A stretch of DNA of 32,611 nt, taken from Xenococcaceae cyanobacterium MO_234.B1. GTDB lineage: Bacteria > Cyanobacteriota > Cyanobacteriia > Cyanobacteriales > Xenococcaceae. The notes beneath the pieces are model-generated. The model was not told where the DNA came from and searched no databases. It worked only from the letters and a program-made list of their open reading frames with translations. A program made the translations under genes and the position numbers. This document shows positions 2,536-12,174 of this stretch, one piece after another. The DNA is taken from positions 1 through 32,611 of the forward strand of contig JASJEK010000079.1 of NCBI GenBank assembly GCA_030064915.1, given 5' to 3'. Each line of letters begins with the position of its first letter. The stretch's first letter is position 1.

Positions 2536-3822
2536 ATGCTAACAATGACTTACGAGTACAAGCTACAGCCAACAACCGAACAAATTGCTACTATCGAGCA
2601 AACGCTAGATGTATGTCGTCTGGTGTGGAACTTTGCCCTTAGACAAAGGAAAGATTGGTGTGGGTCTCGCAAGTCACCTGTTAATGCTTGTTCGATTCAT
2701 TCTGAATACATCATTTCTGCCGACGAACCTTTTCCGAATTACCATAAACAAGCCAAGCAGTTAACCGAAGCCAAAAAAATATATCCCTCACTCAAGTTGG
2801 TTCATTCTCAAGTCTTACAGCAAACGCTAAGAACGTTAGATAGAGCTTGGGATGATATGAAAGCTAGGGGTTTCGGTTTTCCCAGGTTTAAAAACAAGTA
2901 TCGGATGCGCTCTTTTGTCTTTCCGCAGTTAGGAAAAGACCCAATCAGAAATGATGCTATTAAGTTTCCTAAATTGGGATGGGTTAGATGGAGACAATCA
3001 AGACCTATCCCAGAAGGGTTTGAAATCAAACAAGCCAGGATAGTTAGAAAAGCATCTGGTTATTTCGTTGCTCTGTCACTACAGCTAAATATCGATGTTC
3101 CTAATCCCTTACCTCATGGACATCCACGAGGTTTGGACTTGGGGTTTGACTTCTTTGTAGCTACCAGTGATGGCTCAGAGATTAAGCGACCCAGATTTCT
3201 GAAAATTCTACAGCGTAAGCTTAAATTGCTACAACGTAGGTTAAAGAATAAACAAAAAGGTTCAAATAATCGCCACGCTCTTAACCAGAAAATAGCTAGA
3301 TTACATCAGCGTATATCTGATACTCGTAAAGACTGGCACTTTAAACTAAGTCATCATTTGGTTAAAGATGCTGGCATGATCTTTGTTGAGGATATCAACT
3401 TTGTTTCATGGCAAAGAGGAATACTCTCATCTTCATCAGCCGATGCTGGTTTTGGTCAATTTGTGAATATTTTAGAGTGGGTATGTTGGAAAACTGATAC
3501 CTATTTTGCCAAAGTAGATAAAGATGGAACTTCCCAAATTTGTCCTAACTGTGGCGCACATACAGGAAAGAAAACTTTAGATGTTAGAATTCACCATTGC
3601 CATGAATGTCAATATACAACTACACGGGATGTAGCAGCTAGCCAAGAAGTCAGAAACCGAGGATTAAGTAAGGTCGCGTCTGCCGAATTTAGTTCGGCAG
3701 CTTGTGACGACCGTGCGCTAGGGCATAGCGTGCTAGAAAATGTCTGTGGACTGGTTGCGACAGGGAGTATCGGTCACGATACTCTAGTTGGCACAGGAAG
3801 AAGCAGAAAATTAGCGTCGTGA
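2536..3822 (+). CDS. tnpB: TnpB-type RNA-guided nuclease (OrfB)
   Basis: TnpB proteins are RuvC-like nucleases guided by an RNA copied from the element's own right end; they are the ancestors of Cas12. The 428-aa product has the N-terminal OrfB helix-turn-helix region (YEYKLQPTTEQIATIEQTLD), the RuvC motif I GLDLGFDFF with Asp201, motif II IFVEDINF with Glu285, a zinc finger with Cys336, Cys339, Cys355 and Cys358, and motif III TTRDVAASQ with Asp365. All catalytic residues are present, so it could be active. The 50 or so residues after motif III are unlike the usual tail and extend into the right end, where the guide RNA scaffold should lie. The start could be ATG 2536 or ATG 2545 (MTYEYKLQPT). 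Confidence 0.9.
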   Translation: MLTMTYEYKLQPTTEQIATIEQTLDVCRLVWNFALRQRKDWCGSRKSPVNACSIHSEYIISADEPFPNYHKQAKQLTEAKKIYPSLKLVHSQVLQQTLRTLDRAWDDMKARGFGFPRFKNKYRMRSFVFPQLGKDPIRNDAIKFPKLGWVRWRQSRPIPEGFEIKQARIVRKASGYFVALSLQLNIDVPNPLPHGHPRGLDLGFDFFVATSDGSEIKRPRFLKILQRKLKLLQRRLKNKQKGSNNRHALNQKIARLHQRISDTRKDWHFKLSHHLVKDAGMIFVEDINFVSWQRGILSSSSADAGFGQFVNILEWVCWKTDTYFAKVDKDGTSQICPNCGAHTGKKTLDVRIHHCHECQYTTTRDVAASQEVRNRGLSKVASAEFSSAACDDRALGHSVLENVCGLVATGSIGHDTLVGTGRSRKLAS

Positions 3823-5402: not shown

Positions 5403-6278
5403 ATGGCTTTTGGACCAGCATCCGAACTTGGTGTCGGTTTATTCGAGGACAATGCTCCTTTTGAATACGTACCAGGTCGTTCTGAAGAAGAAGTAGAAAG
5501 CATCATTCGTGCTGTATATAGGCAGGTTTTGGGCAATGCTTATATCATGGAAAGCGAAAGAGCGACTATCCCAGAATCTCAATTCAAGAGAGGAGAGTTA
5601 AGCGTTAGAGAATTCGTCCGTGCGATCGCAAAATCTGACGCATATATCTCTCGTTTCTTTGAAACTAGCCCTCGTTATCGTTTTATTGAGCTAAACTTCA
5701 AACACTTGTTAGGACGCGCTCCTAATAGTTTTGCCGAAATGAAAGCTCACAGCGGTATCTTAGACAACGGTGGTTGGGAAGCAGAGATCGATTCCTATCT
5801 CGACAGCGATGAGTATCAAAACGCTTACGGCGAGTTTATCGTACCTTACTACCGTGGATATAAGAGCCAGCCTGGTCAAACTATGGTGCAATTCACCCAT
5901 ATGTTTGCTATGTTGCGTGGTGCTTCCTCCAGTGATTTTAAAGGTAGCTTAGCTGGTAAGACTCCAGTATTAAACAAAAACATCATTCAAGGTAGTCCTA
6001 TTGCGATAGTTGCACCTTCCGGTGGTACGGCTGGTGAGGGTTGGTCTTTCCGCGAACCCACTCTAGGCTCGTCTAGTCGTCAGGGATTTGGTGCTAGTTC
6101 TAACGGTAAAGTTTACCGCATCGAAGTCAGCGGTTATGCTTCTCCTGGCGCAGTAAATCGTGTATCCAAATTCCGTCGTAGCAATAAGGTTTATTTAGTA
6201 CCTTATGACAAGCTATCTCAGGAATATCAGCGCATTCATAAGCAAGGCGGAAAAATTGCCAGTATAACCCCTGTGTAA
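5403..6278 (+). CDS. cpeC: phycoerythrin-associated rod linker CpeC
   Basis: CpeC is a linker that holds phycoerythrin hexamers together in phycobilisome rods. The 291-aa product has the rod-linker domain at about residues 27-155 (IIRAVYRQVLGNAYIMESER, then RYRFIELNFKHLLGRAP and EAEIDSYLDSDEYQ) and a CpcD-like domain at about 235-290, ending KQGGKIASITPV. A Gly/Ser-rich hinge separates them, and it is longer than in its two neighbours, which fits CpeC being the largest of the three PE linkers. It opens the cpeCDESTR operon. AAGGGAG precedes the ATG. The alternative, a phycocyanin linker CpcC, is less likely because cpeS, cpeT and cpeR follow. Confidence 0.93.
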   Translation: MAFGPASELGVGLFEDNAPFEYVPGRSEEEVESIIRAVYRQVLGNAYIMESERATIPESQFKRGELSVREFVRAIAKSDAYISRFFETSPRYRFIELNFKHLLGRAPNSFAEMKAHSGILDNGGWEAEIDSYLDSDEYQNAYGEFIVPYYRGYKSQPGQTMVQFTHMFAMLRGASSSDFKGSLAGKTPVLNKNIIQGSPIAIVAPSGGTAGEGWSFREPTLGSSSRQGFGASSNGKVYRIEVSGYASPGAVNRVSKFRRSNKVYLVPYDKLSQEYQRIHKQGGKIASITPV

Positions 6279-6295
6279 TTTTTAGTTCTATCTTG

Positions 6296-6315
6296 AGTTA
6301 TCAATTCAGATAACT
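6296..6315 (+). repeat. stem-loop between cpeC and cpeD
   Basis: agttatc (6296-6302) and gataact (6309-6315) pair perfectly over a six-base loop, 17 bases after the cpeC stop. There is no T-run behind it, so it is more likely an mRNA-stabilising or processing element than a terminator. The 127-bp gap to cpeD is otherwise unremarkable until the ribosome site. Confidence 0.35.
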
Positions 6316-6405
6316 ACGGAGATGGGGAGACGGGAAGATTAGTTTTCGCATCAACCCGAAACCCTAACTCCAAAACGCCAATAATTTAATTCAGGAGAAA
6401 TCAAA

Positions 6406-7170
6406 ATGCCAGTTATCGACGCACCATTGGAACTATTTCTAACTAGTAGCGCAGATGATAAAACAACAATAATTAGTGCTGTATATAATCAGGTTCTAGG
6501 CAATCCTTACGTTATGGAAAGTGAACGCCTAGTAACTGCTGAATCTCAGCTATGTAATGGCACTATCTCCGTAAGAGAGTTTGTTCGTGCTGTAGCCAAA
6601 TCTGATTTCTATCGCACTCGTTACTTTGAATCTTGCGCTCCTTATCGTTTTGTCGAGCTAAACTTCAAACACTTACTAGGACGCGCTCCTAACGATCAAG
6701 CAGAACTCTCAGCCCATATTCAAACCTGCATTAACCAAGGTTACGATGCAGAAATTGATTCTTACATTGACAGTGATGAATATTCTGAGAAATTTGGTGA
6801 AAACATAGTTCCTTATTACACTGGTGCGAAAAGCGAAGTAGGGAAGAAACAAGTTAACTACAATCGTACTTTATCCCTATTTAAAGGTTACGCAGAAGTT
6901 GACAGTGCAACAAAATCTGCTGTTTTAGTAGATAGCATAGCTACTAATAGTGCAGTGAAAGCTACTCGCTCTAAAGCTAGTGGTCGGATTGCAGGTTATA
7001 AAGACGCAACTGCAAAAACTTTCAAAATTGTGGTGAAAGGTTCTAAATTTGACGCTCCTCGTCGTGTCAGCACCACAGAATACATTGTTCCAGGGTCACG
7101 TATGACTCCCCAAATTCAGCGTATTAACCGCACTGGAGCCAAAATTGTTAGCATCACCGAGATTGTCTAA
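6406..7170 (+). CDS. cpeD: phycoerythrin-associated rod linker CpeD
   Basis: Second of three linkers. The 254-aa protein has the rod-linker domain at about residues 18-140 ([58 protein letters not shown]) and a CpcD-like domain from about 204 to the end (KTFKIVVKG ... RRVSTTEYIVPGSRM ... NRTGAKIVSITEIV). Length and order match CpeD of PE-containing cyanobacteria. The start is preceded by AGGAG with eight bases of spacing, inside the motif aattcaggagaaa that also precedes cpeE. It sits 127 bp behind cpeC and should be co-transcribed. CpeD versus CpeE is assigned by order only. Confidence 0.9.
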   Translation: MPVIDAPLELFLTSSADDKTTIISAVYNQVLGNPYVMESERLVTAESQLCNGTISVREFVRAVAKSDFYRTRYFESCAPYRFVELNFKHLLGRAPNDQAELSAHIQTCINQGYDAEIDSYIDSDEYSEKFGENIVPYYTGAKSEVGKKQVNYNRTLSLFKGYAEVDSATKSAVLVDSIATNSAVKATRSKASGRIAGYKDATAKTFKIVVKGSKFDAPRRVSTTEYIVPGSRMTPQIQRINRTGAKIVSITEIV

Positions 7171-7291
7171 TAATTAACCTTTCATAACCAGTGTCTATTC
7201 CCAATCAAGACGCGCAAGTAATATAGGCACTGAATTGTGAACCAATGATGTTAAATCATCAACTACTAATTTAAATTCAGGAGAAAGTATC

Positions 7292-8053
7292 ATGTCACTG
7301 TGGGTTAAAGATACCAACTTAGTTGAACTGCGCCCTAATTTTACCGAAGATGACTTACAGCAAGTTATTCGCGCAGTCTATAAGCAAGTTTTAGGCAACG
7401 CTCATCTCTTAGAAGGCGATCGCCTAACTAGTGCCGAATCTCTATTACGTAACGGAGATATAACTGTCAGAGGCTTTGTGCGTCTAGTAGGACAGTCAGA
7501 ACTATATCAAGCTAAATTTTTCAATAATTCTGCTCAATATCGTTTTATTGAACTGAATTGCAAACATTTCTTAGGACGTGCACCGAAAGATCAAGTAGAA
7601 ATTGCTCGTCATGTTTTAATCTATAACGAACAAGGTTATACAGCAGAGATTGATTCCTACATTGATAGTGAGGAATACATCGCTAGCTTTGGGGAAAATA
7701 TTGTTCCCTATGCTTGTAACACTACTACTCAAGTAGGTAGCAAAAACGTCGATTTCAATCGTGCTTTCAGTTTGTTCCGTGGAGATGCTACTAGTGATAG
7801 TGGCAAATCTGCCCGTTTAATTACTGATATAGCTGCAAATTTACCTTCCAAAATCAAGCCAACAGCTAAAGGAAGTGGTAATGCTAGTAATACAGGTAAA
7901 AGATTCCGCATCACTGTAAGTAGTCTCTGTGGCGGAAACATCCGTCGTAGCAATGCTACTTATGAAGTAGGTTATGCTCAGTTGAGTCAAAAAGTTCAAA
8001 ATATTCACAAACTAGGTGGCAAAATTGTCAGTATTACTGAAGTTACCAACTAG
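7292..8053 (+). CDS. cpeE: phycoerythrin-associated rod linker CpeE
   Basis: Third linker, 253 aa. The rod-linker domain spans about residues 20-145 ([59 protein letters not shown]) and the CpcD-like domain about 197-250 ([20 protein letters not shown] ... [15 protein letters not shown]). Compared with CpeC and CpeD the domain motifs drift slightly (HFLGRAPK for HLLGRAPN; two extra Cys). Its ribosome site, attcaggagaaa, is nearly the same as that of cpeD. A strong hairpin with heptamer repeats separates it from cpeS. CpeE is by order; any rod position is inferred from family knowledge. Confidence 0.9.
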
Positions 8054-8165: not shown

Positions 8166-8699
8166 ATGAATATTAATGAATTTGTTAAACTATCTTTGGG
8201 TCGCTGGCGATCGCAGAGAAGCGCCCACCATCTCGCCTTTGCTCATTTTGAAGAAGTAACATCTAATATTGATATTGAAGCATTATCCACTAATGATTCT
8301 AGAGTCATCCAACTATGCAAAACTCACGATATTGACCCCCAGTTAGCTACTAGTCCTTTTAAAATGAGTTGGGAAGGAGAATCGGATTGGGATGAAGACG
8401 AAACCCTTGCAGGTTCAACGATTTTAGTGCCAATTCCCGATGGAGAAAATCTCACTAAAGGCAGACTTTTAAGAGAACAAGGTTATGCAGAAACTATCCC
8501 TTCTATCGGAGAATATCAGATAGGAGAAGATGGAACTTTTTTGTTAGTAACTAAATACGACCGCGCAGCAGCCGAAGAAAAGATTTGGTTTGCTACCCCT
8601 AATTTGCGGTTTCGAGTTTCTTTGATTAAAACTAGTAATGGGAAAGGAGTAACTACTGCCTCTTTCTCTTCAGAAATTCGCTCTTTAAATAATACTTAG
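8166..8699 (+). CDS. cpeS: phycoerythrobilin lyase CpeS (CpcS/CpeS family)
   Basis: CpeS-type lyases attach bilin to the central Cys-82-equivalent of phycobiliprotein subunits; in Fremyella CpeS serves beta-phycoerythrin. The 177-aa, lipocalin-fold protein shows the family's pattern: N-terminal LSLGRWRSQRSAHHLAF, the middle MSWEGESDWDEDETLAGSTI, then DRAAAEEKIWFATPNLRFRV and the final strand ASFSSEIR. These are typical CpcS/CpeS signatures, including the AEEKIWFA..NLR(F/L)R motif. The ATG at 8166 lacks a good ribosome site, which fits low expression next to the linkers. CpeS rather than CpcS or CpcU is chosen from the cpe context. Confidence 0.9.
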   Translation: MNINEFVKLSLGRWRSQRSAHHLAFAHFEEVTSNIDIEALSTNDSRVIQLCKTHDIDPQLATSPFKMSWEGESDWDEDETLAGSTILVPIPDGENLTKGRLLREQGYAETIPSIGEYQIGEDGTFLLVTKYDRAAAEEKIWFATPNLRFRVSLIKTSNGKGVTTASFSSEIRSLNNT

Positions 8700-8746: not shown

Positions 8747-9388
8747 ATGTTAATAAATGACTATTTAATAAATGACTATAATTCTCCTCAAACAGAAGGT
8801 AGTCTGCTAAGAGATTTAGCTGAGGCGATGGCAGGAGATTTTAGTAATCAGAAACAAGCCTTTGCCGATTCTAGGAATTACGCTCATATCCGTGTTTTTT
8901 TCCGTCCCCTTCCTTGGGAATTTTTCTCAGCGATCGGTTTTTATTCTGAACAAGTATATGATTATGATCTTTGGACTCCCTATCGTCAAGGAGTACATCG
9001 TTTAGTAGAACGAGGAGATGATATTTATATTGAGAACTATAGTCTCAATGATGCCATGGTCTATGCAGGAGCAGGGCATAACCGAGACATTCTGCAAACT
9101 ATTTCTCCTGACTGCATCCAACGTCGTTACAACTGTTCTATGGTATTTAAGCGAGATGGAGACATATTGCGCGGTAGTGTTGAACCAGGAAATAAATGTC
9201 TTATCCCCAAAAAAGGAATAGAAACTTATCTTGTCAGTGATGTAGAAATAACTCAAACAACCTGGGTTAGTTGGGATCGAGGAATAAATCCCACTACAGG
9301 AGAACAAGTTTGGGGTTCAGCAAAAGGTCCTCTGAAATTTGAAAAAAGAGCTAGTTTCGCTAGTGAATTACCTTTATCAAATCTGTAA
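8747..9388 (+). CDS. cpeT: phycoerythrobilin lyase CpeT (CpcT/CpeT family)
   Basis: CpcT/CpeT proteins attach bilin to Cys-155/165-equivalents of beta subunits; CpeT of Fremyella acts on Cys-165 of CpeB. The 213-aa product carries the family core: LLRDLAEAMAGDFSNQKQAF, RVFFRPLPWEFFSAIGFYSE, PYRQGVHRLV, then CSMVFKRDGDILRGSVEPGN and QTTWVSWDRGINPTTGEQVW. Family length is about 200 aa. Two ATG-containing direct repeats at the start (MLINDYLINDYNS) make the exact initiation site uncertain; no ribosome site is evident. It lies 47 bp after cpeS and 58 bp before the preferred cpeR start, in the conserved cpeSTR order. Confidence 0.9.
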   Translation: MLINDYLINDYNSPQTEGSLLRDLAEAMAGDFSNQKQAFADSRNYAHIRVFFRPLPWEFFSAIGFYSEQVYDYDLWTPYRQGVHRLVERGDDIYIENYSLNDAMVYAGAGHNRDILQTISPDCIQRRYNCSMVFKRDGDILRGSVEPGNKCLIPKKGIETYLVSDVEITQTTWVSWDRGINPTTGEQVWGSAKGPLKFEKRASFASELPLSNL

Positions 9389-9755: not shown

Positions 9756-10101
9756 ATACTGCTAACAATCTTAATTAAATAAATTAAATAAAAGTAATTG
9801 GAGGCAAATTGTGAATAATACCTTTATTTAGGGCTTGCTGAAAAAGTTTTTTGGTTGGGATAGGTAATAGGTAATAGGTAATATAGCAATACGTCAGAAG
9901 GTTAGGACATAGGATTTAAAGTAGGGGCTTTTCGCGAAAAGCCCTTACAGAATTTGATTTGTCCTAACCTAAATTTGTAGGGCTATAGTTTTATTCAGCA
10001 AGCTCTATTTAAAAATAATTATTAAAATATAAAGCTTTTCTCCTACAAGTCTTCTCTTAATCTATACTATTGTGTTACGGTATGCTAGGAGATGGCTCGA
10101 T
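9756..10101. other. intergenic region after cpeR, mostly a MITE
   Basis: Between cpeR and the next gene there is no ORF. About 190 bp of it is the MITE-like element described separately (9825-10011). A weak ttgtta/taacaa pair straddles the cpeR stop region (9752-9769) but lacks a T-run, so no clear terminator is visible. Confidence 0.5.
9825..10011. mobile_element. 175-bp MITE-like element with TIRs and a 6-bp flanking duplication
   Basis: Element 9831-10005 starts gggcttgctgaa and ends ttcagcaagctc, a 12-bp terminal inverted repeat with one mismatch. Both sides are flanked by tattta (9825-9830 and 10006-10011), a plausible target duplication, though AT-rich. Inside, a perfect 11-bp inverted repeat (aggttaggaca 9899-9909 with its complement 9960-9970) encloses a perfect 20-bp palindrome (9925-9944). 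A heptamer, ataggta, is repeated three times at 9860-9880. It encodes nothing, so it would need a transposase in trans. The parent IS family is not identified. Confidence 0.7.
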
Positions 10102-10416
10102 ATGAATGGCAAAAAGAAACGCAATAGTCTTCGAGAAGCAGCAAGAAAAAAATCGAAGCTGAATATTGCCGTTTCTGCCCTAACTTTACAAAAGTTATCT
10201 GAAATTGCCCAAAAATTGCCCAAAGAATTAAAATATCGAAATCTGATTTATGTAGCAAGTATTGATAATTTACGAAAAGTAAATTATCTTCTTCAAAGTT
10301 CCCATACTCAAAGTAAAAGATTAATAGTCAGCTTCACATTGCTATTACTTTTGAATGTTGGGATTACAGGGTTTATTGCCAGATATTACTATTGGCAAAC
10401 AATCGGTTTTAATTAA
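10102..10416 (+). CDS. small basic protein with C-terminal membrane anchor
   Basis: No family recognised. The preferred start is ATG 10102, preceded by AGGAG with ten bases of spacing; a GTG at 10072 is possible but has no ribosome site. The 104-aa protein begins with a very basic stretch (MNGKKKRNSLREAARKKSK). A segment follows that resembles a ribbon-helix-helix unit (LNIAVSALTLQKLSEIAQKL), and it ends in one hydrophobic helix, LIVSFTLLLLLNVGITGFIA, with aromatic residues after it. This suggests a tail-anchored protein with its basic domain in the cytoplasm. It lies 18 bp before the large coiled-coil gene, which has the same plan, so the two probably form an operon. Confidence 0.6.
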   Translation: MNGKKKRNSLREAARKKSKLNIAVSALTLQKLSEIAQKLPKELKYRNLIYVASIDNLRKVNYLLQSSHTQSKRLIVSFTLLLLLNVGITGFIARYYYWQTIGFN

Positions 10417-10434
10417 ACATCGGAGGCAAAGAAA

Positions 10435-12174
10435 ATGGTACGAAAAAAACGTAAAACAGACCCTAATAACACTACAATTCTTGATAAAAAACAGATAGGA
10501 ATATCTCTGACTTATGCTGCCTTAGAAAATCTTAATGCTATGGTAGAAGAGACAGGATTATCCAAATCAAAATTGATTGAAGGTTTAGTGACAGGAGAAA
10601 TAGCAACTGCTCATCATCCTGCCGAAACGAAGCTTAACCTTGAAGCTGAAGCAAAAACCTCCCACTCCGATGAAATATCTAAAACATCAGAAACTATCCA
10701 AAAGTTAGAATCTCAATTGGCAGAAAAAATCGCCAATTATAAGACTTTAGAGCGAGCTTCAGAACAGCAACTTGCTCAGATCAAAGAATTAGAAAATCAG
10801 CTTGAGAAACTACAAGAAAAAAATACTAGCACTGAAGAAACAAATCATATTATAGAGCAACTCAAGACACAATTATCTGAATATCAGCAACAAGAAGAAT
10901 CTTGGAAAAATCAACTGACAGAAGCTCAAAATAAGTTAGCAGGAGTAGAACAAGAAGTAGGGCAAAAACAGTCTGAACTCGAAAAATCTATCGAGGAATG
11001 TCGGACTTTACAACAATCTGTAACTGAGACAGAAAAACAACTAGCAGAAGCTAAACAGGAATCACAATCTCACCAGCAACAAAATAGTGAATTACAAGAA
11101 ACTTTATCTCAGCAAAGAACAATTACAGAGTCTTTACAACAACAGTTAGAAGATAAAGATAATGAAATTAATAGTCTTCATCAGCAACTAGAGCAAAATC
11201 GCATTCAGACTGAAGAACAAAATCAAACTCAGCACACTTTACAGCAGCAACTAGATAGCTTACAACAGGAGTTAGGAGATAAAGATCATTGGATTGATAG
11301 TCTTCATCAGCAACTAGAGCAAAATCGCCTTCAGGCTGAAGAACAAAATCAAGTTCAGCACAATTTACAGCAGCAACTAGATAGTTTACAACAGGAGTTA
11401 GGAGATAAAGATCATGAAATTAGTAGTCTTCATCAGCAACTAGAGCAAAATCGCATTCAAACGGAAGAACAAAATCAAGTTCAGCACAATTTACAGCAGC
11501 AGCTAGATAGCTTACAACAGGAGCTAGGAGATAAAGATCATGAAATTAGTAATCTTCATCAGCAACTAGAGCAAAATCGCATTCAGGCTGAAGAACAAAA
11601 TCAAGTTCAGCACAATTTACAGCAGCAACTAGATAGTTTACAACAACAGTTAGGAGATAAAGATCATGAAATTAGTAGTCTTCATCAGCAACTAGAGCAA
11701 AATCGCATTCAGACGGAAGAACAAAATCAAGTTCAGCACAATTTACAACAGCAAATAACTCAACAACAAACAGAACTTGCTCAACAAAAAGAACAGACTA
11801 ACAGTTTACAGCAGCAATTGCGCCAGAGCGAGGAACAAGGTAATAATCTTCAGCAACAACTGCAACAAGAACAAACTCAATCCCAACAGCAGTTAACCAA
11901 TAACCAAAAACTACAGCAAGAGATTAATCAACTCACCGAAAAATTATCTCAACAAGAATCTAGTTATGAATCTTTGCAGCAACAGTTAGAAATAAAAGAA
12001 AACTCTCTTAGTACTTTGCAAACTAAACTAGAAGAACAAAAATCTTTAGTACAGCAACAAAGCAGTGGTAATAAGTATAAAAATATGACCATAGTTGCTC
12101 TAACTATACTCTCACTTACCCTAGCTGTAATCTCTGGGTTACTAGCTAAAACCAATTTTGCAGGGATGTCTTAG
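10435..12174 (+). CDS. long coiled-coil, tail-anchored protein with 42-residue repeats
   Basis: No family recognised. The 579-aa protein has three parts. Residues 1-60 are basic and contain KKQIGISLTYAALENLNAMV followed by EETGLSKSKLIEGLVTGEI, which reads like a ribbon-helix-helix DNA-binding unit. Residues about 75-545 form a Gln/Glu-rich coiled coil; within it five copies of a 42-residue (six-heptad) unit, GDKDHEISSLHQQLEQ and onward, are nearly identical. Residues about 551-572 are a membrane helix (MTIVALTILSLTLAVISGLL). A ribosome site, ggagg, lies 8-12 bases before the ATG. The design suggests a membrane-tethered filament or spacer that may hold DNA or a partner at the membrane; this is inference. 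Confidence 0.75.
   Translation: MVRKKRKTDPNNTTILDKKQIGISLTYAALENLNAMVEETGLSKSKLIEGLVTGEIATAHHPAETKLNLEAEAKTSHSDEISKTSETIQKLESQLAEKIANYKTLERASEQQLAQIKELENQLEKLQEKNTSTEETNHIIEQLKTQLSEYQQQEESWKNQLTEAQNKLAGVEQEVGQKQSELEKSIEECRTLQQSVTETEKQLAEAKQESQSHQQQNSELQETLSQQRTITESLQQQLEDKDNEINSLHQQLEQNRIQTEEQNQTQHTLQQQLDSLQQELGDKDHWIDSLHQQLEQNRLQAEEQNQVQHNLQQQLDSLQQELGDKDHEISSLHQQLEQNRIQTEEQNQVQHNLQQQLDSLQQELGDKDHEISNLHQQLEQNRIQAEEQNQVQHNLQQQLDSLQQQLGDKDHEISSLHQQLEQNRIQTEEQNQVQHNLQQQITQQQTELAQQKEQTNSLQQQLRQSEEQGNNLQQQLQQEQTQSQQQLTNNQKLQQEINQLTEKLSQQESSYESLQQQLEIKENSLSTLQTKLEEQKSLVQQQSSGNKYKNMTIVALTILSLTLAVISGLLAKTNFAGMS
11149..11778 (+). repeat. five in-frame 126-bp tandem repeats
   Basis: Units start at 11149, 11275, 11401, 11527 and 11653. 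Each is 126 bp and codes for 42 residues. The third to fifth are almost identical at DNA level; the first (EDKDNEINSL) and the second (GDKDHWIDSL) differ more, and the fifth diverges at its 3' end. The high DNA identity points to recent expansion by slippage or recombination, so copy number may vary between strains. Confidence 0.92.

Follow-up and report, generated by a model that had tools for sequence, protein, structure and literature searches.

An apparently undescribed ribbon-helix-helix-headed coiled-coil protein family associated with phycobilisome-rod genes in Cyanobacteriales

Do two adjoining cyanobacterial genes, each encoding a basic head and a membrane tail, form one functional unit, and what could such a unit be for? 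The question is raised by a contig of Xenococcaceae cyanobacterium MO_234.B1 (GenBank assembly GCA_030064915.1, contig JASJEK010000079.1); "the window" below is the whole stretch analysed, 32,611 nucleotides in length. A sequence-only reading proposed two open reading frames here, and both were found, 18 bases apart, each with a plausible AGGAG/GGAGG-like ribosome-binding site (Table 1). It interpreted them as a short and a long arm of one membrane-tethered scaffold and knew of no described system with such a layout; our literature search, with subscription journals mostly outside its coverage, returned no description of the long-protein family. Few light-harvesting machines have been studied as thoroughly as phycobilisomes; nonetheless, the long protein appears to belong to a conserved cyanobacterial family, linked to phycobilisome rods, that has not been described.

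Table 1. Features of the window that are discussed in the text
Feature	Position	Strand	Basis or remark
Three phycobilisome rod-linker genes	5403-6278, 6406-7170, 7292-8053 (span 5403..8053)	+	PF00427 / profile search
CpeS-type lyase	8166-8699	+	PF09367, 1.5e-63
CpeT	8747-9388	+	PF06206, 7.1e-67
CpeR-like gene, 111 aa	9420..9755	+	94-95% identity in congeners
Coiled-coil rod-linker gene, start remnant	9800..9828	+	86% over 29 bp vs the linker start in L034
Nested repeat elements, ~59 bp, then ~108 bp palindromic	9825..9990	.	occupy the place of the rod-linker gene
Conserved leader, AATAATTATT palindrome and -10-like TATACT	10000..10101	+	kept in G002, G003
Short gene, 104 aa; TM helix and a basic head limited to strand and helix A	10102..10416	+	
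TM helix of the short protein, residues 74-92	10321-10377	+	
Long gene, 579 aa: RHH head, coiled coil, C-terminal TM helix	10435..12174	+	
RHH domain, long protein residues 18-55	10486..10599	+	
Coiled coil, long protein residues 75-545	10657..12069	+	period 3.50 vs shuffles
126-bp tandem repeat, 4.9 copies (42 aa = six heptads)	11134..11754	+	
C-terminal transmembrane helix, residues ~551-571	12085..12147	+	Kyte-Doolittle 2.28 over 21 residues

Architecture of the long protein

The head of the long protein is, as judged from profile searches and a predicted model, a ribbon-helix-helix (RHH) fold. Taken alone, the protein of the window scores 17.4-17.5 bits against Pfam RHH_1, under the cut-off of 20.5; the same entry is matched by 24 of the 27 aligned family members (best 1.3e-6), and the family profile of the head finds CopG in the PDB with E=5e-8. 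In the AlphaFold model helices occupy residues 27-40 and 44-53 in the two-helix arrangement of RHH proteins, and the top Foldseek matches of this model are CopG chains (probability 0.87-0.97, with E values of only 0.1 to 0.3). Within the family alignment the start of helix B, GLSKS, is strongly conserved, and a basic arm of the MARKKRK type is present in nearly all members. Codon comparison gives the head a dN/dS of 0.25 (0.04 for the CpeR-like gene), which indicates purifying selection. Such a head would most likely bind DNA. Its outward strand positions in the window are Q20-G22-S24, and the counterparts in CopG are R4-T6-T8; base-specific contacts may therefore be weak.

The Gln-rich coiled coil of about 470 residues described earlier is borne out: the hydrophobic period peaks at 3.50 with a power of 7.9 (the best of 500 shuffles reached 1.6), and the region is proline-free, with Gln making up 26% of it. 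At 0.149 nm per residue, its 470 residues could reach a length of about 70 nm. Part of it is built from the 126-bp tandem repeat, and the total length of orthologs varies from 202 to 804 aa; coil length differs so widely among them that a fixed ruler is not expected. We dismissed matches to XLF, Lebercilin, SMC, Rad50 and Crescentin as coil-driven and compositional; for SMC and Rad50, the ATPase head domains are absent and the matches of the coil region lie far below the cut-offs.

The single C-terminal membrane helix that had been read in both proteins is found in both (Table 1). In the long protein it is kept in the congener G003, and the last 45 codons have a dN/dS of 0.11, at synonymous sites near saturation; the C-terminus also appears to be under purifying selection.

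The short gene and the proposed pair

The two proteins had been assigned a common plan with an RHH-like basic N-terminus. The basic start is present in both (net +8 in 20 residues of the short one), and the RHH part holds for the long protein alone. In the short protein the strand and helix A align with those of intact relatives; set against L051 and L052, it lacks the entire coil and about eight residues of helix B, so that a complete strand-helix-helix is not formed. Structure prediction gives the RHH helices for the long head and, for the short protein, one unbroken helix over residues 26-102, lacking a turn, at low confidence.

A full-size partner of 189-211 aa, consisting of RHH, short coil and TM helix, is located directly upstream of the long gene in L046, L051 and L052. 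The short protein of the window resembles it in the head (33-42% identity, E 5e-7 to 1e-6) and in the tail (E 5e-6). The long gene is carried by 24 of the 27 genomes of the family; the partner is intact, and the pair complete, in only three (G004, G005 and G011), and no intact partner was found in the remaining long-gene-bearing genomes among the 27. What is left in the congener G002 is one relic of the head and one of the tail, separated by hundreds of bases that include stops and inserted sequence; in the congener G003 the frame is likewise broken. For the head codons, the short gene set against the relic of G002 yields a dN/dS of 0.70, as compared to 0.25 for the long head and 0.04 for the CpeR-like gene. 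Scans of the named genomes yielded zero matches to the short protein, and nine loci only in the search with the head. On these comparisons the short gene is a deletion derivative of an RHH-coil-TM partner and a decaying remnant.

For the long protein a membrane-tethered RHH scaffold is a fair description; a functional two-component scaffold of a short and a long arm, although the three adjoining full-length pairs speak for it, seems to us highly improbable considering the truncated short head in the window, the relics, and the other genomes with a long gene and no intact partner.

Gene neighbourhood and the common C-terminal tail

The antenna context of the long gene was overlooked in the sequence-only reading. 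In the window a phycoerythrin cluster, cpeC/D/E-S-T-R, lies just upstream of it. The first two rod linkers match PF00427 at 3.3e-49 and 9.4e-52, and the third was matched by profile search; the name CpeR is our assumption from the gene order of the cpeCDESTR operon. In the congeners G002 and G003 an intact coiled-coil rod-linker gene follows cpeR. The window keeps approximately its first 29 bases, and the inner palindromic element of about 108 bp that lies in its place has about 30 near-identical copies in the same genome. A leader resembling that of the window is also found in L033, L035, L040 and L042. Downstream of the long gene is an amylase-family gene on the opposite strand. At the start of the window, a Type I-MYXAN Cas5 gene (TIGR02586) and a TnpB-family gene occupy positions 673-1305 and 2536-3822.

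Orthologs of the long protein were found in about 15 families of Cyanobacteriales, and in at least eight of them they are housed in phycobilisome-rod gene clusters: f1 (the family of the window), f4, f5, f7, f13, f17, f24 and f27, as well as strain ESFC-1. In f4 and f13 the gene is located between two lyase genes of the CpcS/CpeS type, near phycobiliprotein genes. No phycobilisome cluster directly adjoins the gene in f2, f6, f11, f14, f23 and f29, some of the stretches there being short; in f1, too, several members carry the long gene at a distance from the antenna cluster. A plasmid search for the long protein gave no match. By simple arithmetic, in a genome such as G042, with about five linker loci, the stretches no more than 5 kb from a linker locus add up to about 2% of the length; that the placement recurs in eight families is far from this chance expectation, even though the families are not fully independent. 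Among 33 genomes from outside the window's family, five have both cpeR and the long gene, seven the long gene only and four cpeR only. This weak correlation relates the long gene to phycobilisome rods generally and not to phycoerythrin alone.

One could regard the protein as a general coiled-coil cytoskeletal or membrane protein that lies near antenna genes by happenstance. The six families with no adjoining antenna cluster and the low-complexity coil with its expanding tandem repeats agree with this; however, the placement in at least eight families and the specificity of the common tail described below make it quite unlikely. An RHH antitoxin of a toxin-antitoxin pair was also considered and rejected: no toxin adjoins the gene, which is surrounded by antenna genes, the short remnant and the amylase-family gene. 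Other RHH genes of the same genomes were set aside as distinct. One group forms a separate family of 173-186 aa with a different C-terminal domain (L182, L183, L184, L185, L186 and L187, from several genomes of the window's family), its C-terminal half (GAFLVTNFAQFAYVGSS-type) resembling a GIY-YIG domain by eye; the others are TetR-type regulators fused to a C-terminal RHH, beside transport-type genes (L189:3326-4234 and L190:4282-5148).

Outside f1, nearly all orthologs lack the terminal TM helix and carry in its place a conserved tail, A-x-I-G-E-x-x-L-N-[KR]-W-R-x-R-x-F. Proteins retrieved with a profile of this tail are mainly of two kinds: the RHH coils, and rod linkers in which PF00427 is accompanied by a coiled-coil extension; a search of solved structures with the motif gave nothing past generic coiled coils. 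The tail-bearing rod linker is located directly upstream of the RHH gene or RHH pair in L033, L034, L046, L054, L055 and L066. Linkers of this kind occur in f33 genomes as well, in which the long RHH protein was not found. In L054 (f24) the RHH protein has a TM-like end and the neighbouring linker has the tail; the exchange of tail for TM helix there and in f1 suggests the same anchoring job for both. The tail also accompanies a coil with no RHH in L174 and L176, so the head may be dispensable, and it occurs together with an N-terminal TM segment in L161, so it need not be a membrane anchor. The proteins concerned are L174:9377-9805, which occupies the slot between the lyase genes and retains the basic start, coil and tail, and L161:8373-8837, a small protein with the LNKWR tail encoded beside another tail-bearing coil. 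Beside the RHH gene of L055 lies a rod linker with two PF00427 domains, a coil and the LNKWR tail (L055:7261-9045).

These observations can be read in a purely structural way, in which the RHH only dimerises, and coil and tail make up a rod scaffold or a scaffold for lyase delivery with no role for DNA. The same tail motif at the end of a rod linker, the position between lyase genes in two families, the two tail-bearing coils lacking the RHH and the variable coil length are all consistent with it. The phosphate-binding turn and the basic arm of the RHH are, however, conserved beyond the needs of a plain dimeriser, and we consider this structural reading possible, if not the one that we prefer.

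It is also tempting to propose feedback: the RHH would control rod operons, and regulator and rod linker would compete through their tails for a common partner, so that the antenna status feeds back on transcription. The tail common to both proteins, the adjoining activator gene cpeR and the conserved palindrome-bearing leader upstream of the unit point in this direction. Nevertheless, the family of the window has a TM helix instead of the tail, and partner and operator are only hypothetical; we believe this regulator to be rather improbable.

Possible role and comparison with known systems

The reading that we favour, tentatively, is a membrane-docked DNA tether or regulator for rod genes; it ranks above the purely structural antenna factor, which is close behind. 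The long protein would form a parallel coiled-coil dimer, in keeping with the RHH fold, which itself dimerises. Its C-terminus would be fixed to the membrane by the TM helix in f1 and by the rod-linker-type docking tail in most other families, and the basic head would be presented on the cytoplasmic side. There it would bind DNA, probably at or near rod-gene operons, and the antenna genes or their expression would be held at the membrane where the rods are assembled. The short gene, a decaying duplicate of the same plan, would not be needed for tethering.

We prefer the tether because GLSKS and the basic arm are conserved and both ends of the protein appear to be under purifying selection, because phycobilisome genes adjoin in eight families and ESFC-1 with the lyase slot in f4 and f13, and because PF00427 linkers have the tail too, and f1 and L054 have a TM helix in place of it. 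The Q-G-S strand, the RHH-less proteins of L174 and L176, the tail of L161 and the six families with no adjoining phycobilisome cluster count against it. The narrower version, in which the RHH-headed coil holds rod genes or their expression specifically at the thylakoid assembly site and does so with a linker-type tail in most families, is doubtful in our estimation.

In any case, the family joins a fold of the DNA-binding type either to a membrane anchor or to a tail that a structural rod linker also has. Should the head bind DNA, antenna genes would be physically linked to the membrane on which antennae are assembled; should the protein be only structural, the common LNKWR tail still points to a novel docking partner of antenna linkers.

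Among known systems, CopG and Arc-type RHH repressors have the fold of the long head; the long protein differs from them in its strand residues and continues into a long coil that ends in a membrane or docking tail. MatP, the organiser of the Ter region in E. coli, combines an RHH DNA-binding fold with a coiled coil. Lipid binding has been reported for it (PMC6538776). In contrast to MatP, the long protein has its RHH at the very N-terminus, a much longer coil, a true TM helix and an antenna-cluster context, and membership was rejected, as no MatP family is found among its Pfam or NCBIfam matches. HmpF, Slr7083 and Syc2039 are coiled-coil-rich cyanobacterial proteins, one with a predicted TM segment (PMC7002697); the long protein is similarly rich in coil, and that paper mentions neither ribbon-helix-helix nor phycobilisomes. 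CpcL, a protein of the phycobilisome, has a transmembrane region that is predicted to serve as its thylakoid anchor (PMC10322944). The long protein shares such a region with CpcL and differs in the absence of the PF00427 linker domain; a linker identity was rejected on this ground. In relatives, the tail-bearing linker next to the gene does have the domain. By analogy, the mode of action of the long protein would come closest to a cross between an RHH-plus-coil DNA organiser in the manner of MatP and a membrane anchor in the manner of CpcL; the protein belongs to neither.
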